A stretch of 64,000 bases of DNA, from the IMG/VR virus record IMGVR_UViG_3300044729_001198, positions 1-64,000 of that record; one strand, 5' to 3'. The notes under the pieces were generated by a model, which saw nothing but the letters and a program-made list of their open reading frames with translations, searched no databases and was not told the origin of the DNA. The translations under genes were made by a program, and so were the position numbers. Numbering within the stretch: the first letter of the stretch is position 1; each line of letters begins with the position of its first letter. Below, one piece after another: positions 20,673 to 63,194 of the stretch. This DNA is from a virus.

Positions 20673-22247
20673 TTAAAGTATCCATGTCATGTCAAGGTCG
20701 TTACCACGACCATCCTTAACAACCCATGGGTTTTTACTACCAAGCCGTGAGTTGTAAGCTCCACCGTCACTTTTTCCAATATGTGTAAGCGCAGTTCGTG
20801 TTAAATCAATACCTTGTTGTCTTAATTTAAGAGCGGTATCTCTTACCCATAGTCCTGTGGAAAATGACATTACCAAGTCATCATTATAACCTTGTTGAGC
20901 TTCAGCCCGTGAACCATTCCAAATGAATACAAACAACTCATCAATCAATCTTTTAGAATGAATGATTGGAGCTTTCTCTCTCATGTATGTATCTAATTTA
21001 GAAATGACTAATGGTCGTGTTCTTGATGTCATCGAAAACCCAGGAACCATGTCTTCTTTTTTCTTTAAGTCCCATCCCTTTCGTAGATGAACATCTTCGT
21101 CAACGTACCCTACTTCACGATATGAATAATAAAGATTTTGATAATTTCGGTCAATAACTTCTTGTATAACAGCCCAACCAATGTTTGCGTTTTCAATCAC
21201 CAACATAGCATTGTTCCATTCAGCGGCAATAGAGGTTAGCATCGCTCCAAATTGTTTTGTTTCAATCTTACCTTTATATTCTGCAACTTGTTCTACTGTC
21301 TCCACATCTATAACATGGAATGCTGAGTAATCTTGACCATCTCCACGAGCAACGTCAGCTACAACCACATAGTCACGAGAATAGTTTGGATATTCCCAAA
21401 CCCAATAGTTACTATCGAATCCACGTTTTTCAACTGGATCTTTGATATAAGTTTCTTGATACCATGTTAGGATTGATGAATCAACTACAGTGTAACCTGA
21501 ACTGATAAAGTCACAATCACATTCTTGTGCTGCTCCTTTTTCACCAAGTAGTTTAGTTTGGTCATCTCTCCACTTTTGATTTCGTTCAGGGTGAACAGTC
21601 CAGTGAAGTTTAATTGGATTCCAACTATCACCAGCCTCACCTTTTAACCAAATTTTATGAAACCAATTACCAACACCATTTGGTGTTGAAAGTACAATAG
21701 CTTTACCACCTGTAGACAAAGTTGATTGAGCCGATGTCCAAATGTCTTCGATATTTTGAATAAATGCAGCCTCGTCAATGATTAACATTGATAATGCTTC
21801 AGAACGACCAGCGTCACCTGCAGCAGAGGTTGCTTTAATTTGAGAACCATTTCGTAATCGTAAGGAAAGTTTGTTGTCTTCGATAGTTTCACTCTTTAAC
21901 CAACTTGGTAAACTATCATGCATAAATCTAACCTTTGTTACAAGGTTTTTTGCTACTTCTTGTTTGGTGGCAATTACCAATATGTTTTTATCCTCATGAA
22001 ATAACATCATCCACAACGAATATCCTGCTGATAGGGTTGAGATACCCAACTGACGTGACTTTAAGATTACGTTGAACCGATTATCATTGAAATCAGTCAT
22101 CAAATCTTCTTGGAACGGGTACAAGTTGAATAAAATCTTACCTCGGTGTGGGTGTTGGATGTAACAATATTTTTTAAAGAAATATACGGGATCTTTCGCA
22201 CACTTAATGTACTCCTCCCGTATCATTTCCTTTAAAGTTTTTGCCAT
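20673..22247 (-). CDS. 17: Terminase large subunit (gp17-like)
   Basis: This 524-residue DNA-packaging motor and nuclease has a Walker A variant SRQLGIST (64-71), Walker B MLIIDEA (154-160) and the coupling motif LSTPNG (186-191). The C-terminal RNase H-like nuclease has its acidic strand VADVARGDGQDYSA (296-309), and later conserved residues around NDDLVMS. The lack of an intein or insertion and the normal length indicate an intact enzyme. It acts with the portal encoded just downstream. The small terminase subunit is not visible in the window. Confidence 0.95.
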   Translation of the reverse strand: MAKTLKEMIREEYIKCAKDPVYFFKKYCYIQHPHRGKILFNLYPFQEDLMTDFNDNRFNVILKSRQLGISTLSAGYSLWMMLFHEDKNILVIATKQEVAKNLVTKVRFMHDSLPSWLKSETIEDNKLSLRLRNGSQIKATSAAGDAGRSEALSMLIIDEAAFIQNIEDIWTSAQSTLSTGGKAIVLSTPNGVGNWFHKIWLKGEAGDSWNPIKLHWTVHPERNQKWRDDQTKLLGEKGAAQECDCDFISSGYTVVDSSILTWYQETYIKDPVEKRGFDSNYWVWEYPNYSRDYVVVADVARGDGQDYSAFHVIDVETVEQVAEYKGKIETKQFGAMLTSIAAEWNNAMLVIENANIGWAVIQEVIDRNYQNLYYSYREVGYVDEDVHLRKGWDLKKKEDMVPGFSMTSRTRPLVISKLDTYMREKAPIIHSKRLIDELFVFIWNGSRAEAQQGYNDDLVMSFSTGLWVRDTALKLRQQGIDLTRTALTHIGKSDGGAYNSRLGSKNPWVVKDGRGNDLDMTWIL

Positions 22248-59537: not shown

Positions 59538-60467
59538 TTAAGCATTGCCCATATTATGCCCCTTTGGGTGTTTACCAAATTTGGAAATGTAATCTAACAC
59601 AGTCAGTTCTTTCATCTTGGCTTCAATGTCAATATCAAGGTCATGACCATATGTATTGATTTCCGAATAGATGAAGTCAGAGTGTGCTTGTGGTTTAGCA
59701 GTAGGGTCTTCTAACGTCTTTGATTCTGAATAGTGGACAAGTGGTTTGACATCACCCCAAGTAGACATAGCAAGTTCAAGGGCTTCTTGTTCGGTCAGTC
59801 CGCCAGTATTGAATGTATGGTGGTGGTAGTCGAACACAATAGGGATACCAGTACGTTCGTGGATATACATAAGGTCTTTAACTGAATACATACTACCTTT
59901 GTCATCATTCTCAACAGTCAGTCGTGTTTGAACTGATTCTGGTAACAATTCAAAATTCTTACAAAATCTATCCATAGCAGATTGCTTGTCACCATACACA
60001 CCATTACAATGGATGTTAATAAGGTTGTACGGACTACGTTCCAATCCCATAAGGTCAAAGTGTTCACCATGAATAGATAAGTCTTTGATGGTGTTCTTAA
60101 CCACGTTCTCGTTAGGTGATACTAACACATTGAATGGACCAGGATGAGACGTGATACGTTGATTGTACATATTAGCGAGACTACCGGCACCACGAAGTAC
60201 ATTTGAAAACTTGTCAAAGTCTGGCATATCTGATAACTGAAATTCAGTAGCCCATGGTACAAGGTCCGATGTCATACGAAATAGTCCGAACCCATTTTGG
60301 TGATTCCACTTGATAATCTCTACAAGGTCACGAGCGTTTTGGAGTGCTAGATTGGATGACCTACTAATACCTTCCTTGAGAAATGTCTTCTTGACCATAG
60401 AACGATTTGTGGTAATCTTTTGTTTACCAAGGGTCATGTTAATACAGCAATATCCTAATTGTGTCAT
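59538..60467 (-). CDS. uvsE: UV-damage endonuclease (UvsE/UVDE)
   Basis: The 309-residue TIM-barrel enzyme nicks DNA 5' to UV photoproducts. Metal-binding and active-site blocks match the family: MTQLGYCCINMTL at the start, FGLFRMTSDLVPW, SHPGPFNVL, NIHCNGVYGDKQSAMDRF, LTVENDDKGSMYS (with the catalytic glutamate) and PIVFDYHHHTFN. A host-type promoter lies just upstream, inside the downstream arm of a terminator. The enzyme would serve a phage in sunlit water, which fits an aquatic origin. Confidence 0.95.
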   Translation of the reverse strand: MTQLGYCCINMTLGKQKITTNRSMVKKTFLKEGISRSSNLALQNARDLVEIIKWNHQNGFGLFRMTSDLVPWATEFQLSDMPDFDKFSNVLRGAGSLANMYNQRITSHPGPFNVLVSPNENVVKNTIKDLSIHGEHFDLMGLERSPYNLINIHCNGVYGDKQSAMDRFCKNFELLPESVQTRLTVENDDKGSMYSVKDLMYIHERTGIPIVFDYHHHTFNTGGLTEQEALELAMSTWGDVKPLVHYSESKTLEDPTAKPQAHSDFIYSEINTYGHDLDIDIEAKMKELTVLDYISKFGKHPKGHNMGNA

Positions 60468-60483
60468 ATCTTTTAGTTATATA

Positions 60484-60514
60484 CAAATGTAATAAAAAAA
60501 AAGGACTTATACAA
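60484..60514 (-). promoter_or_regulatory. Bacteroidota-type promoter for uvsE, fused to a terminator
   Basis: TTG (60512-60514), 20 bp, TACATTTG (60484-60491). The TTG is part of the terminator hairpin of the RNA-ligase operon, and the U-tract is the spacer. Confidence 0.75.
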
Positions 60515-60525
60515 GCCCTTTTTCA
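60494..60525 (-). terminator. Terminator of the RNA-repair operon
   Basis: The minus-strand RNA forms AAGGGCUU / AAGUCCUU (8 bp with one G-U pair, 4-nt loop) followed by nine U residues. It lies just after the RNA-ligase stop. Confidence 0.85.
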
Positions 60526-60532
60526 TTTTTAT

Positions 60533-61657
60533 TTAAAGTTTTTCAAATTTAGGTTTTAACGCCTTCCAAATTATCTTATCATAATCCTTACCATCCCACA
60601 TAGCAAACATGATTGATTTTGCAATTGGATGATGGTCTTTGATATGTTCGGCAAATTGTTTTTTAGTTGGTTCTGGGTCAACATCACCATATTTACCAAA
60701 CCTAAAGTAATCGTAGGTTTTACCTAATTGATTCCAGTATTGGTAGTACCCATATTTAAGAGTTGAAACATAAAGCTTTATCTTTGTATAAAACTCATCA
60801 GGAACATCTTTAAGAATGTCATCTATATTACCACCACTTGATACTACTTCCCAAATTGAGGTTGTAGACAAATTGGTCATTATTTTATGTAAACGAACAT
60901 ATTCTTCAAATTTGATTTTCATTCTAAAATTACCTGGGTGGAATCTTAAAACAAAACCCTCTTTGTTAATTTCATTCTTTTCCTTCAATGACTTATAAAG
61001 TTCATCAGAGAAATTAAAGTGTTGTTCAGTTTTAACAATGTCTGATTTTTTAATTCCATTTCCAGCAAAGATAGAACAAGCAGTTGTCCAATGAAGTTCG
61101 ATTTCGTCTGTCGGTTTCCAACCTGTAAATCCTTCGTTTAAAACCACCGATAGAAAAACTACCGTTTCTTTACCATAATCTACTACAATTCGGTTTTCAG
61201 GATAAATGATTTCTACAAGGTAAGCATATTCCCTCATCCAAACATTATCAAAGACCGGATAGTTTCTTTTAAGAATTTCCATACCTCTGATTGCTTGGTC
61301 TGAAGTAAATGAACCACGAGTTGCCATAACCCACTCACCTTCGTAGTTAAATAGGATACCCAACGAACCGTCCATTTTTTCTTGGACATAGACATAATCC
61401 CCTTTAGTAGGAATTTGACTTTCACTCCACTTACCACCCACTAACTCTTCGTAATTAAAGAATTTTTTAAATGGACGTACTATTACTTTACCAGAATCCG
61501 TGTTGGTTATAAGACCTCGACATTGAATGGTTACATCATCCCATAGACTCTCATATTGAACCTTTTCAGTATAGTTCCAAATAGTAAGTGGTAACGTGGG
61601 ATGTGTCTGACTATACAACAACCCATCCGATTCATATTTTTTAAGTACGTCTAACAT
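60533..61657 (-). CDS. rnlA: RNA ligase, Rnl1 type
   Basis: The 374-residue enzyme matches the T4 Rnl1 family. The nucleotidylation lysine is K94 in QEKMDGSLGI, and TQCRGLIT-like and RPFKKFFNYEE blocks precede it. ATRGSFTSDQA follows, then motif IV KEGFVLRF and motif V MKIKFEEYVRL. It seals 3'-OH and 5'-phosphate RNA ends with ATP. In T4 this repairs tRNA cut by host defence. It overlaps the kinase gene by 7 bp, so both are translated together. Confidence 0.93.
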   Translation of the reverse strand: MLDVLKKYESDGLLYSQTHPTLPLTIWNYTEKVQYESLWDDVTIQCRGLITNTDSGKVIVRPFKKFFNYEELVGGKWSESQIPTKGDYVYVQEKMDGSLGILFNYEGEWVMATRGSFTSDQAIRGMEILKRNYPVFDNVWMREYAYLVEIIYPENRIVVDYGKETVVFLSVVLNEGFTGWKPTDEIELHWTTACSIFAGNGIKKSDIVKTEQHFNFSDELYKSLKEKNEINKEGFVLRFHPGNFRMKIKFEEYVRLHKIMTNLSTTSIWEVVSSGGNIDDILKDVPDEFYTKIKLYVSTLKYGYYQYWNQLGKTYDYFRFGKYGDVDPEPTKKQFAEHIKDHHPIAKSIMFAMWDGKDYDKIIWKALKPKFEKL

Positions 61658-62067
61658 AACTTCAATTCAAATCGATTTTTCATTTGTTCTAACTTATCGT
61701 CAGGCACACCATGTACGTTTACACCACCATGTCTATTTTCAACTACTAATGAGTAAACTCTATATCCATATTGTTTAGCCAATTCAAAGTATGTTTGCAT
61801 TTCCCATTCTTGGGTAAATGTATTTGATACTACAATTTTTCGATAGAATTGGTCATTAACCAAAGAATCTTTCATATAAGTTTCAACTGTATTTCTACAA
61901 AACTCATGTGCATCTTTTAATTTAGAACCATCAAAGTTGTAGTTACCTTCTTTATCATAAAAATACTTATCAGCTTCACATATTAAGAAATCACTTCCTA
62001 CTATTGAATTTGCTAATGTTGATTTACCACTGCCGGGCAATCCTCTTAATAAAAATAACTCTTTCAT
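61651..62067 (-). CDS. P-loop polynucleotide-kinase-like protein
   Basis: The 138-residue protein has Walker A LRGLPGSGKST (7-17), then ICEADKYFYDKEGNYNFDGS and a lid region with QEWEMQTYFELAKQYGYRVY. It resembles the kinase half of polynucleotide kinases and NEDD4BP2-type P-loop kinases. It would phosphorylate RNA 5'-OH ends and so prepare substrates for the ligase just downstream. It overlaps the phosphoesterase gene by 4 bp (ATGA). There is no phosphatase domain in this protein, unlike T4 Pnkp. Confidence 0.85.
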   Translation of the reverse strand: MKELFLLRGLPGSGKSTLANSIVGSDFLICEADKYFYDKEGNYNFDGSKLKDAHEFCRNTVETYMKDSLVNDQFYRKIVVSNTFTQEWEMQTYFELAKQYGYRVYSLVVENRHGGVNVHGVPDDKLEQMKNRFELKLC

Positions 62068-62714
62068 ATTAATCTTTTTTCGTGATGGTCTTTAGGTAAA
62101 CATAATTTTTTAATAGGTCGGTCTTTTAACAAGTCTAAAATTTCAACAAGTTCGATTGGGTATAGTTCGTTACCATCCATACCAACATCCATAGCACGAC
62201 CCTCGGCAATACGATGTTGTGGATACAGGTGACAATGACCATGTAAGTGCATTATACCAGCATTCATGTTATCCCAACTTGCAATTGGATAATGCATACA
62301 CACAAATGAAAACTTATCTACAAATTTACCATTTGGGATTCGTAAGTCAAGATACAAATACTCATGGATTGACTTGAACAACCTCTGAATGTTTTCTTTA
62401 TTTCTACGAATGTGGTGGTCGTGGTTACCAAGAACCAAGTGTATGTTTTTACAAAGAATCCTATTCCTAAACTCTTCAATCTTATCAAACCCACCAAACG
62501 ACCAATCTCCCATGTGAATCAAAACATCGTTTTCACCCACCACCTCGTTGATGTTGTTCACAATAGCATCGTTCATCTCTTCAATAGAATCAAAGTGACG
62601 AGCGGTATCATCAGCATCCTTCCAATTCGTGGTAGCTGAACAAATGTTTGCGTGACTATAATGGGTATCGGATGTGAACCACAATCGTTGACCCTTTTCT
62701 AATACTAATTTCAT
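62064..62714 (-). CDS. Calcineurin-type metallophosphoesterase
   Basis: All metal-binding motifs are present: FTSDTHYSHANI (13-24), HMGDWSFGGFD (67-77), LGNHDH (94-99), CMHYPIASW and HLHGHCHLYP. With kinase and ligase in the same operon, it is a good candidate to remove 3'-phosphate or 2',3'-cyclic phosphate from RNA ends, as the central domain of bacterial Pnkp does. The start codon lies 4 nt after the promoter -7 box, so the mRNA may be leaderless. Confidence 0.88.
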   Translation of the reverse strand: MKLVLEKGQRLWFTSDTHYSHANICSATTNWKDADDTARHFDSIEEMNDAIVNNINEVVGENDVLIHMGDWSFGGFDKIEEFRNRILCKNIHLVLGNHDHHIRRNKENIQRLFKSIHEYLYLDLRIPNGKFVDKFSFVCMHYPIASWDNMNAGIMHLHGHCHLYPQHRIAEGRAMDVGMDGNELYPIELVEILDLLKDRPIKKLCLPKDHHEKRLI

Positions 62715-62718
62715 AATA

Positions 62719-62749
62719 CAAATGTAAATAAAAAAGGGGACTTAAACAA
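62719..62749 (-). promoter_or_regulatory. Bacteroidota-type promoter for the RNA-repair operon, fused to a terminator
   Basis: TTG (62747-62749), 20 bp, TACATTTG (62719-62726). As at uvsE, the TTG sits in the hairpin of the preceding terminator and the U-tract is the spacer. Spacing and -7 box are the same as at uvsE. Confidence 0.78.
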
Positions 62750-62758
62750 GCCCCCTTT
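62730..62758 (-). terminator. Terminator after the Hsp20 gene
   Basis: The minus-strand RNA forms AAGGGGGCUU / AAGUCCCCUU (10 bp with one G-U pair, loop GUUU) followed by UUUUAUUU. It lies about 20 bp after the Hsp20 stop. Confidence 0.88.
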
Positions 62759-62777
62759 GTTAAAAAATTGTTAAGTT

Positions 62778-63128
62778 TTACTTTATCTTAACACGAACGG
62801 ATTCTTTTTTAGAACTTTTAACTTTGGGGATTCTAACAATCAAAATACCATTCTTTAATTCAGCCGTAGTTGATTCGGTATCAAAGCTTGAATTAATCTT
62901 GTACTTACGAGAAAAATGTCTAACTGAATTTTCAGCGTTCATAACCAAGACTCCCTCTTCAATGTTAATTGATACTTCGTCTTTTTCAAAACCGGGAATT
63001 TCAAATTCCATTTTTAATTCTGAATCAGTAACTTCCATGTGGTCATTTCTGATATCATAGTTTGTAGCAGCTGTTGACCACAAACTAAAATCTTTGTCGT
63101 CTAATAGATGTTTTAATAACGATGTCAT
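62778..63128 (-). CDS. hsp20: Small heat-shock protein (Hsp20/alpha-crystallin)
   Basis: The alpha-crystallin domain is complete: DSELKMEFEIPGFEKDEVSI, then GVLVMNAEN and the C-terminal AELKNGILIVRIPKVK with the I-x-I-type anchor motif. Hsp20 genes are common in T4-type marine phages and probably stabilise virion assembly or phage proteins. I choose the start MTSLLKHLLDD at 63128, because AAAGGAG lies 8 nt upstream; an earlier in-frame ATG at 63155 has none. Confidence 0.92.
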   Translation of the reverse strand: MTSLLKHLLDDKDFSLWSTAATNYDIRNDHMEVTDSELKMEFEIPGFEKDEVSINIEEGVLVMNAENSVRHFSRKYKINSSFDTESTTAELKNGILIVRIPKVKSSKKESVRVKIK

Positions 63129-63194
63129 AAATTTCTCCTTTTTTTGATATACCATTTACCAATGTCATACCAATCTTAATTTCATGACATATTG

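Follow-up and report, generated by a model that had tools for sequence, protein, structure and literature searches.

Among the systems that come closest to the elements described here are the PeSLs, which are said to be promoter-early stem-loop cassettes of T4-type phages. As summarized in a citing text (PMC4503421, citing Comeau 2014), these motifs are composites of a promoter and a terminator. The promoters of the Bacteroidota have the elements TTTG and TAnnTTTG (PMC6847099, PMC7366714). In Flavobacterium johnsoniae, the start sites are found 4-5 nt beyond the -7 element, and little is seen of the -33 motif (PMC6847099); in Bacteroides thetaiotaomicron the -33 and -7 elements are both seen, with a variable spacing (PMC7366714). 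A literature search with limited phrasing retrieved no paper on a promoter element within a terminator hairpin.

We analyzed the first 64 kb (the window) of an IMG/VR phage record of 186,631 bp (G000). The host of this phage is probably a member of the Bacteroidota, as suggested by the promoter type and by a relative that is a Flavobacterium phage. Two units on the - strand of the window have the same order of parts, namely a G+C hairpin, a U-tract and the box TACATTTG. As originally predicted, a TTG located within the hairpin precedes this box by exactly 20 nt in both units. We consider it very probable that each unit is an intrinsic terminator nested inside a Bacteroidota-type (sigma-ABfr-like) promoter.

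The resemblance to sigma-ABfr promoters consists of the -33 TTG (TTTG/TTG in sigma-ABfr promoters), the -7 element TAnnTTTG, which is found in both units of the window, and the AT-rich spacer. The phage units differ from sigma-ABfr promoters in that their spacing is fixed at 20, their TTG is invariant, an upstream TTAACA-n5-TTAACA repeat is present, the box often reads TAnnTTTA, and a hairpin sits in the spacer. Since the -33 motif is hardly visible in F. johnsoniae, the host rule would lead one to expect a weaker element than the invariant TTG.

As in PeSLs, a terminator stem-loop and a promoter appear to be combined in one short intergenic part, of which there are several copies per phage genome, often between small genes. 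However, in the 100 kb of phage RB49 that were scanned, TTGACA lies clear of the hairpin, 13-18 nt beyond the stem, in five units (four perfect units and one variant were listed). The layout in RB49 is thus tandem, whereas the present units are nested, with the -33 TTG inside the hairpin. In addition, the PeSL promoter is an early sigma-70 promoter, whereas the present units have TAnnTTT(A/G) with n20 and are sigma-ABfr-like. By this reading of RB49, our unit would work like a PeSL but departs from PeSLs in both layout and promoter type. A single nested case was found in the Enterococcus phage SSBHU (PQ778307, near 22013-22080; L244), between the tape-measure and Dit genes, and BLAST returned similar matches in four other Enterococcus phage records. 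This case is like ours in having a hairpin (GGGGCTTGTATAAGTCCC) followed by T6, with TTGTAT as the -35 element inside the hairpin, but it has sigma-70 geometry, with a 17-nt spacer and TATAAT.

Organization of the two units in the window

Unit A (all features on the - strand) has a terminator-like hairpin (GAAAAAGGGCTTGTATAAGTCCTTTTTT, 60497..60524) of 12 pairs with a 4-nt loop and a core energy of -10.6 kcal/mol. The 5' arm of the hairpin together with the first base of the loop provides the TTG (60512..60514), which is invariant in relatives and would serve as the -33 element. It is followed by the 20-nt spacer (TATAAGTCCTTTTTTTTTAT, 60492..60511), which comprises both the 3' arm of the hairpin and the U-tract, and by the putative -7 element (TACATTTG, 60484..60491). 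Transcription had been predicted to start 5-7 nt beyond the box, but the F. johnsoniae spacing points to 4-5 nt (PMC6847099), which would place the start site at 60478..60479. The gene that would be started by unit A encodes the UV-damage endonuclease UvdE/uvsE (59538..60467; PF03851, E=7e-60), and the gene that would be ended by it encodes a T4 Rnl1-type RNA ligase (60533..61657; PF09511), the stop codon of which ends 19 nt ahead of the TTG.

Unit B, also on the - strand, carries the upstream repeat TTAACA-n5-TTAACA, which unit A lacks. The first TTAACA box is located at 62769..62774 and the second, 11 nt from the first, at 62758..62763. The terminator-like hairpin (AAAGGGGGCTTGTTTAAGTCCCCTTT, 62733..62758) has 11 pairs and a core energy of -15.3 kcal/mol, and it contains the candidate -33 TTG (62747..62749). 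The 20-nt spacer (TTTAAGTCCCCTTTTTTATT, 62727..62746) is composed in the same way as that of unit A, and the putative -7 element (TACATTTG) is found at 62719..62726. On the upstream side, unit B would end a gene of the Hsp20 family (62778..63155; PF00011). The first gene downstream encodes a calcineurin-like phosphoesterase (62064..62714) and is followed by genes for a P-loop (AAA_33) protein and an RNA ligase, in an arrangement that resembles an RNA-repair operon. The phosphoesterase has a 67.6% relative in the Flavobacterium phage immuto, upstream of which there is a tRNA and not a terminator-promoter unit. Its ATG lies 4 nt beyond TACATTTG (62719-62714), so that a start site spaced as in F. 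johnsoniae would give a leaderless mRNA.

For the sequence TACATTTG, 14 occurrences were counted in the window where 6 would be expected, and the box alone therefore means little. A search of the 64-kb window against Rfam gave no match. Positions 1-2000 of the window contain dense 9-nt repeats that code, on the - strand, for collagen-like Gly-X-Y, and the product is probably a tail fibre.

Related units in viral contigs

A genome search for units composed of a hairpin, a T-rich stretch and a box had been proposed along with the original prediction. An exact scan for the core GGGGCTTGTnTAAGTCCCC yielded 54 stretches in IMG/VR viral contigs, whereas 257 Gb of genome sequence from bacteria and archaea gave a single match (Butyrivibrio), probably due to chance. 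The contexts of the core matches revealed two further conserved parts, which are the upstream TTAACA-n5-TTAACA and a box that usually reads TAnnTTTA. A second scan, in which the TTAACA repeat, GG..CC and T5 were imposed but neither the TTG nor the box, yielded 101 stretches, and 60 of the 62 distinct sites listed from it are units (L066 and L072 are not). In the alignment, the TTG and TA..TT are invariant even though the second scan did not impose them. The combination of hairpin, TTG and box is far beyond chance, with the reservation that the units are related and that the counts overstate the independent evidence. The Bacteroidota-type box TACATTTG that had been predicted is present in both units of the window, but the relatives mostly have TAnnTTTA rather than TAnnTTTG, and some have TTAG. 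The TTAACA repeat is common to unrelated phages. When the 57-nt consensus was compared with named phages by BLAST, the matches were partial and no true member was among them, and the TTAACA-type promoter was absent from the seven named Bacteroidota phages examined.

Conservation of the TTG position and covariation of the hairpin

The position of the TTG is kept in all 67 distinct related units that have the TTAACA repeat and any hairpin. In the 64 units with a box matching TAnnTT, the TTG is without exception located exactly 20 nt upstream of the box, and the remaining three units have TATATTGT instead, likewise at 20 by reading. Because some of the 67 units were retrieved by the core scan, in which CTTG was required, the 60 of 62 sites from the second scan represent the fairer number. 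The spacing of 20 is kept when the loop is one base shorter and the tract one base longer (L067, L068, L081, L061), when the stem is one pair longer and the tract one base shorter (L011, L017, L107, L042), and also in L092, which has a different 25-nt hairpin and a short U-tract. In a 266-kb phage record (G024), the hairpins AAAAGCTTGG-TTAT-TCCAAGCTTTT and GAAAGTTTGG-AAAC-CCCAAACTTTT place the TTG in a long arm, again at a spacing of 20. In the record G022 (39 kb), the hairpin CCCAC-TTGCGAGA-GTGGG has it at 20 in a larger loop, with one hairpin site of this record departing to a spacing of 19 and one to 22. Judging from these sequences, the terminator-in-promoter arrangement has been built with several unrelated hairpins while TTG-n20 was kept.

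The stem pair C26-G35 covaries, being G-C in L065, L070 and L110 and U-A in L112, with the TTG unchanged, and the outer stem pairs also change together in the alignment. At stem position 25-36, a G-U pair is present in 45, an A-U pair in 13 and a G-C pair in 5 of the 64 sequences. The covariation of pairs and the common G-U wobble (45/64) indicate that the hairpin is an RNA structure. The T-A pairs that hold the TT of the TTG show zero compensatory changes, and the only variants are G-U pairs with the change on the other arm.

One could argue that the hairpin is solely a terminator with a conserved apex, in which RNA requirements (weak closing pairs and a GNNA-type loop) preserve the TTG, and that the box is a separate weak motif. 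Indeed, the stem covaries as RNA, and a GNRA-like tetraloop (GGAA, GTAA, GAAA) often begins with the G of the TTG. However, ordinary terminators of the same contigs rarely have this TTG: in a control set of 67 terminators with a hairpin and a U-tract but without the box, it was found at the matching place in 2.2% of placements. In the same control scan it was present in all 72 terminators with TTAACA and the box, a figure that is not independent because some of the loci came from the scan that imposed the TTG and the box. Moreover, promoters without a hairpin keep TTG-n20 (see below), and the TTG remains at 20 in the larger loop of G022 and the long arm of G024. The idea that RNA structure alone preserves the TTG is thus largely refuted already, and we regard it as extremely improbable. 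The original view had the -33 TTG as a part of the hairpin and the U-tract as the spacer. It withstood tests capable of refuting it, namely the 20-nt spacing in every related unit, as compared to the control rate of about 2%, and the persistence of this spacing through compensating changes, unrelated hairpins and hairpin-less promoters.

Terminator-like features of the hairpin

We compared 263 distinct promoter sites, 95 of which have a hairpin (below -6 kcal/mol) while 168 do not. With the reservation that both comparisons treat related sites as independent and hence overstate significance, a run of five T before the box was present at 90 of the 95 hairpin sites and at 18 of the 168 hairpin-less sites, and a co-directional stop codon within 150 nt upstream at 90 of 91 hairpin sites and at 137 of 160 other sites (p = 0.0002). 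At the hairpin sites these stop codons are in fact 10-49 nt upstream. The units have the G+C stem and U-tract of intrinsic terminators, one exception being the copy near 68261 (L001:4709-4787), in which the hairpin and the TTG are kept, the U-tract is absent and the box reads TACCTTTA. The outer stem of that copy is compensatory (ATTGGGG/CCCCAAT), and the copy is conserved in the relative L057. As the hairpin is located 5' of the predicted start, it would be made only in transcripts that arrive from upstream. In relatives, the upstream gene often uses the TAA of a TTAACA box as its stop codon, with the result that the stop codon, upstream box, putative terminator and promoter overlap.

Alternatively, the hairpin might represent a DNA operator palindrome for a phage regulator, in which case the unit would be a regulated promoter only. 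The strong conservation of the inner sequence GCTTGTnTAAGT in the G000 group and the one copy without a U-tract are consistent with such a role. By contrast, the unrelated hairpin sequences at the same place, the common G-U wobbles and the association of the hairpins with U-tracts and co-directional stops all argue against an operator, which we therefore consider highly improbable.

A promoter family with an optional hairpin

The family consensus is TTAACA-n5-TTAACA-n8-TTG-n20-TAnnTTT(A/G). A direct scan of the 187-kb record identified 12 sites with 11 or 12 of the 12 TTAACA bases, all on the - strand, while zero sites on that strand scored 9 or 10 of 12. The TTG spacing is n20 at 11 of these sites and n19 at one. 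Together with the uvsE copy, which lacks TTAACA, the family has 13 members in the record. A strong hairpin (-10.6 to -15.5 kcal/mol) is present at only 4 of these 13 sites, which indicates that the hairpin is an optional insert in the promoter, and a covariance model detected more copies in the phage in which the stem is lost and all other parts are kept. The phage also has a second promoter class, TTG-n19/20-(TTCG)TATATTTG, with the TTG at 19 or 20 in 12 of 12 cases. The 12 sites of this class in G000 are on the - strand and include 39478 and 58247. Since both the hairpin-less promoters and the second class keep the TTG spacing, TTG-n20 is the promoter's own rule and not that of the hairpin. 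At 75860-75806 of the record, a terminator is followed by a class-2 promoter in tandem and without nesting, so both layouts occur in one phage.

The hairpin varies even at the same gene. At 49 uvsE-like starts, it is present in 36 cases, TTG-n20-box occurs without a comparable hairpin in seven, one hairpin is partly decayed and five starts have neither. Hairpins are therefore gained and lost within a standing promoter. The two units of the window, which had been taken for independent copies, belong to one repeated family with further core copies at 68262 and 70697 and many more in relatives. The notion of a terminator-promoter unit as such is not supported; at base the part is a promoter, with a terminator in only some of the copies (4/13).

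The near-identical core copies in this one phage (60515, 62750, 68262 and 70697), which sit between exchangeable small genes, could also reflect a PeSL-like mobile regulatory cassette that is kept mainly because homologous copies let modules recombine. We consider this unlikely, since the function-bearing positions are conserved whereas the hairpin sequence is replaced in other phages. A cassette of this kind does not exclude the terminator-promoter reading.

A proposed overlapping stop-and-start signal

The architecture, the spacing constraint, the covariation and the association with U-tracts and upstream stops can all be read directly in the DNA, and actual termination and initiation, as well as the polymerase and sigma factor used, are what we infer. 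A polymerase coming from the upstream gene would transcribe the hairpin and the U-tract and stop. The DNA of this stretch would double as a promoter. Its -33 element would be the TTG within the hairpin, its spacer of fixed length (20 bp) would be formed by the 3' arm together with the U-tract, and the next gene would be started from the -7 element TAnnTTT(A/G). The hairpin is optional, the phage using the same promoter without it elsewhere, and it has been gained or lost at the same gene. In most copies, a pair of TTAACA boxes, spaced by one helical turn, precedes the TTG at distances of 25 and 14 bp. These boxes probably strengthen or regulate the promoter, and their possible binding partners are the polymerase alpha subunit, a host factor and a phage factor. 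A sigma-70 region 2 could not be recognised in the phage record. Among the observations that speak against the nested terminator-promoter are a -7 box that in most relatives differs from the host consensus (by a last base A, or by TTAG), an invariant TTG where F. johnsoniae has a faint -33 motif, and the lack of a U-tract in the copy near 68261.

Bacterial RNA polymerase is known to stay on the DNA after release and to restart in vitro (PMC6978380). Nesting may have evolved several times in phages because it couples two units, in that the polymerase stops on the next promoter and could be handed on to restart there, or in that upstream transcription could directly gate initiation downstream, a suggestion that we regard as rather doubtful. 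If the nested terminator-promoter is real, it would be a natural overlapping stop-and-start signal of about 40 bp in uncultured phages, probably of Bacteroidota. It could then serve as a compact part in the engineering of Bacteroidota, and it would allow a direct test of whether a just-terminated polymerase can restart at a promoter under it. It would also provide a well-defined class of phage promoters whose -33 element is invariant, an element that is hard to see in host genes of the phylum.

Hairpin-less promoters of the phage, for example at 87427, 161008 and 161765 of G000, have a conserved leader (CTCTGTAATCAATGAGAGATATGA) with two in-frame ATGs (MRDM). In addition, many relatives have an imperfect palindrome, possibly an operator, that overlaps both the -7 box and the region of the start (columns 54-66 of alignment A1, for example TTTACATAGTAAA), with 72.5% of the cells being paired.
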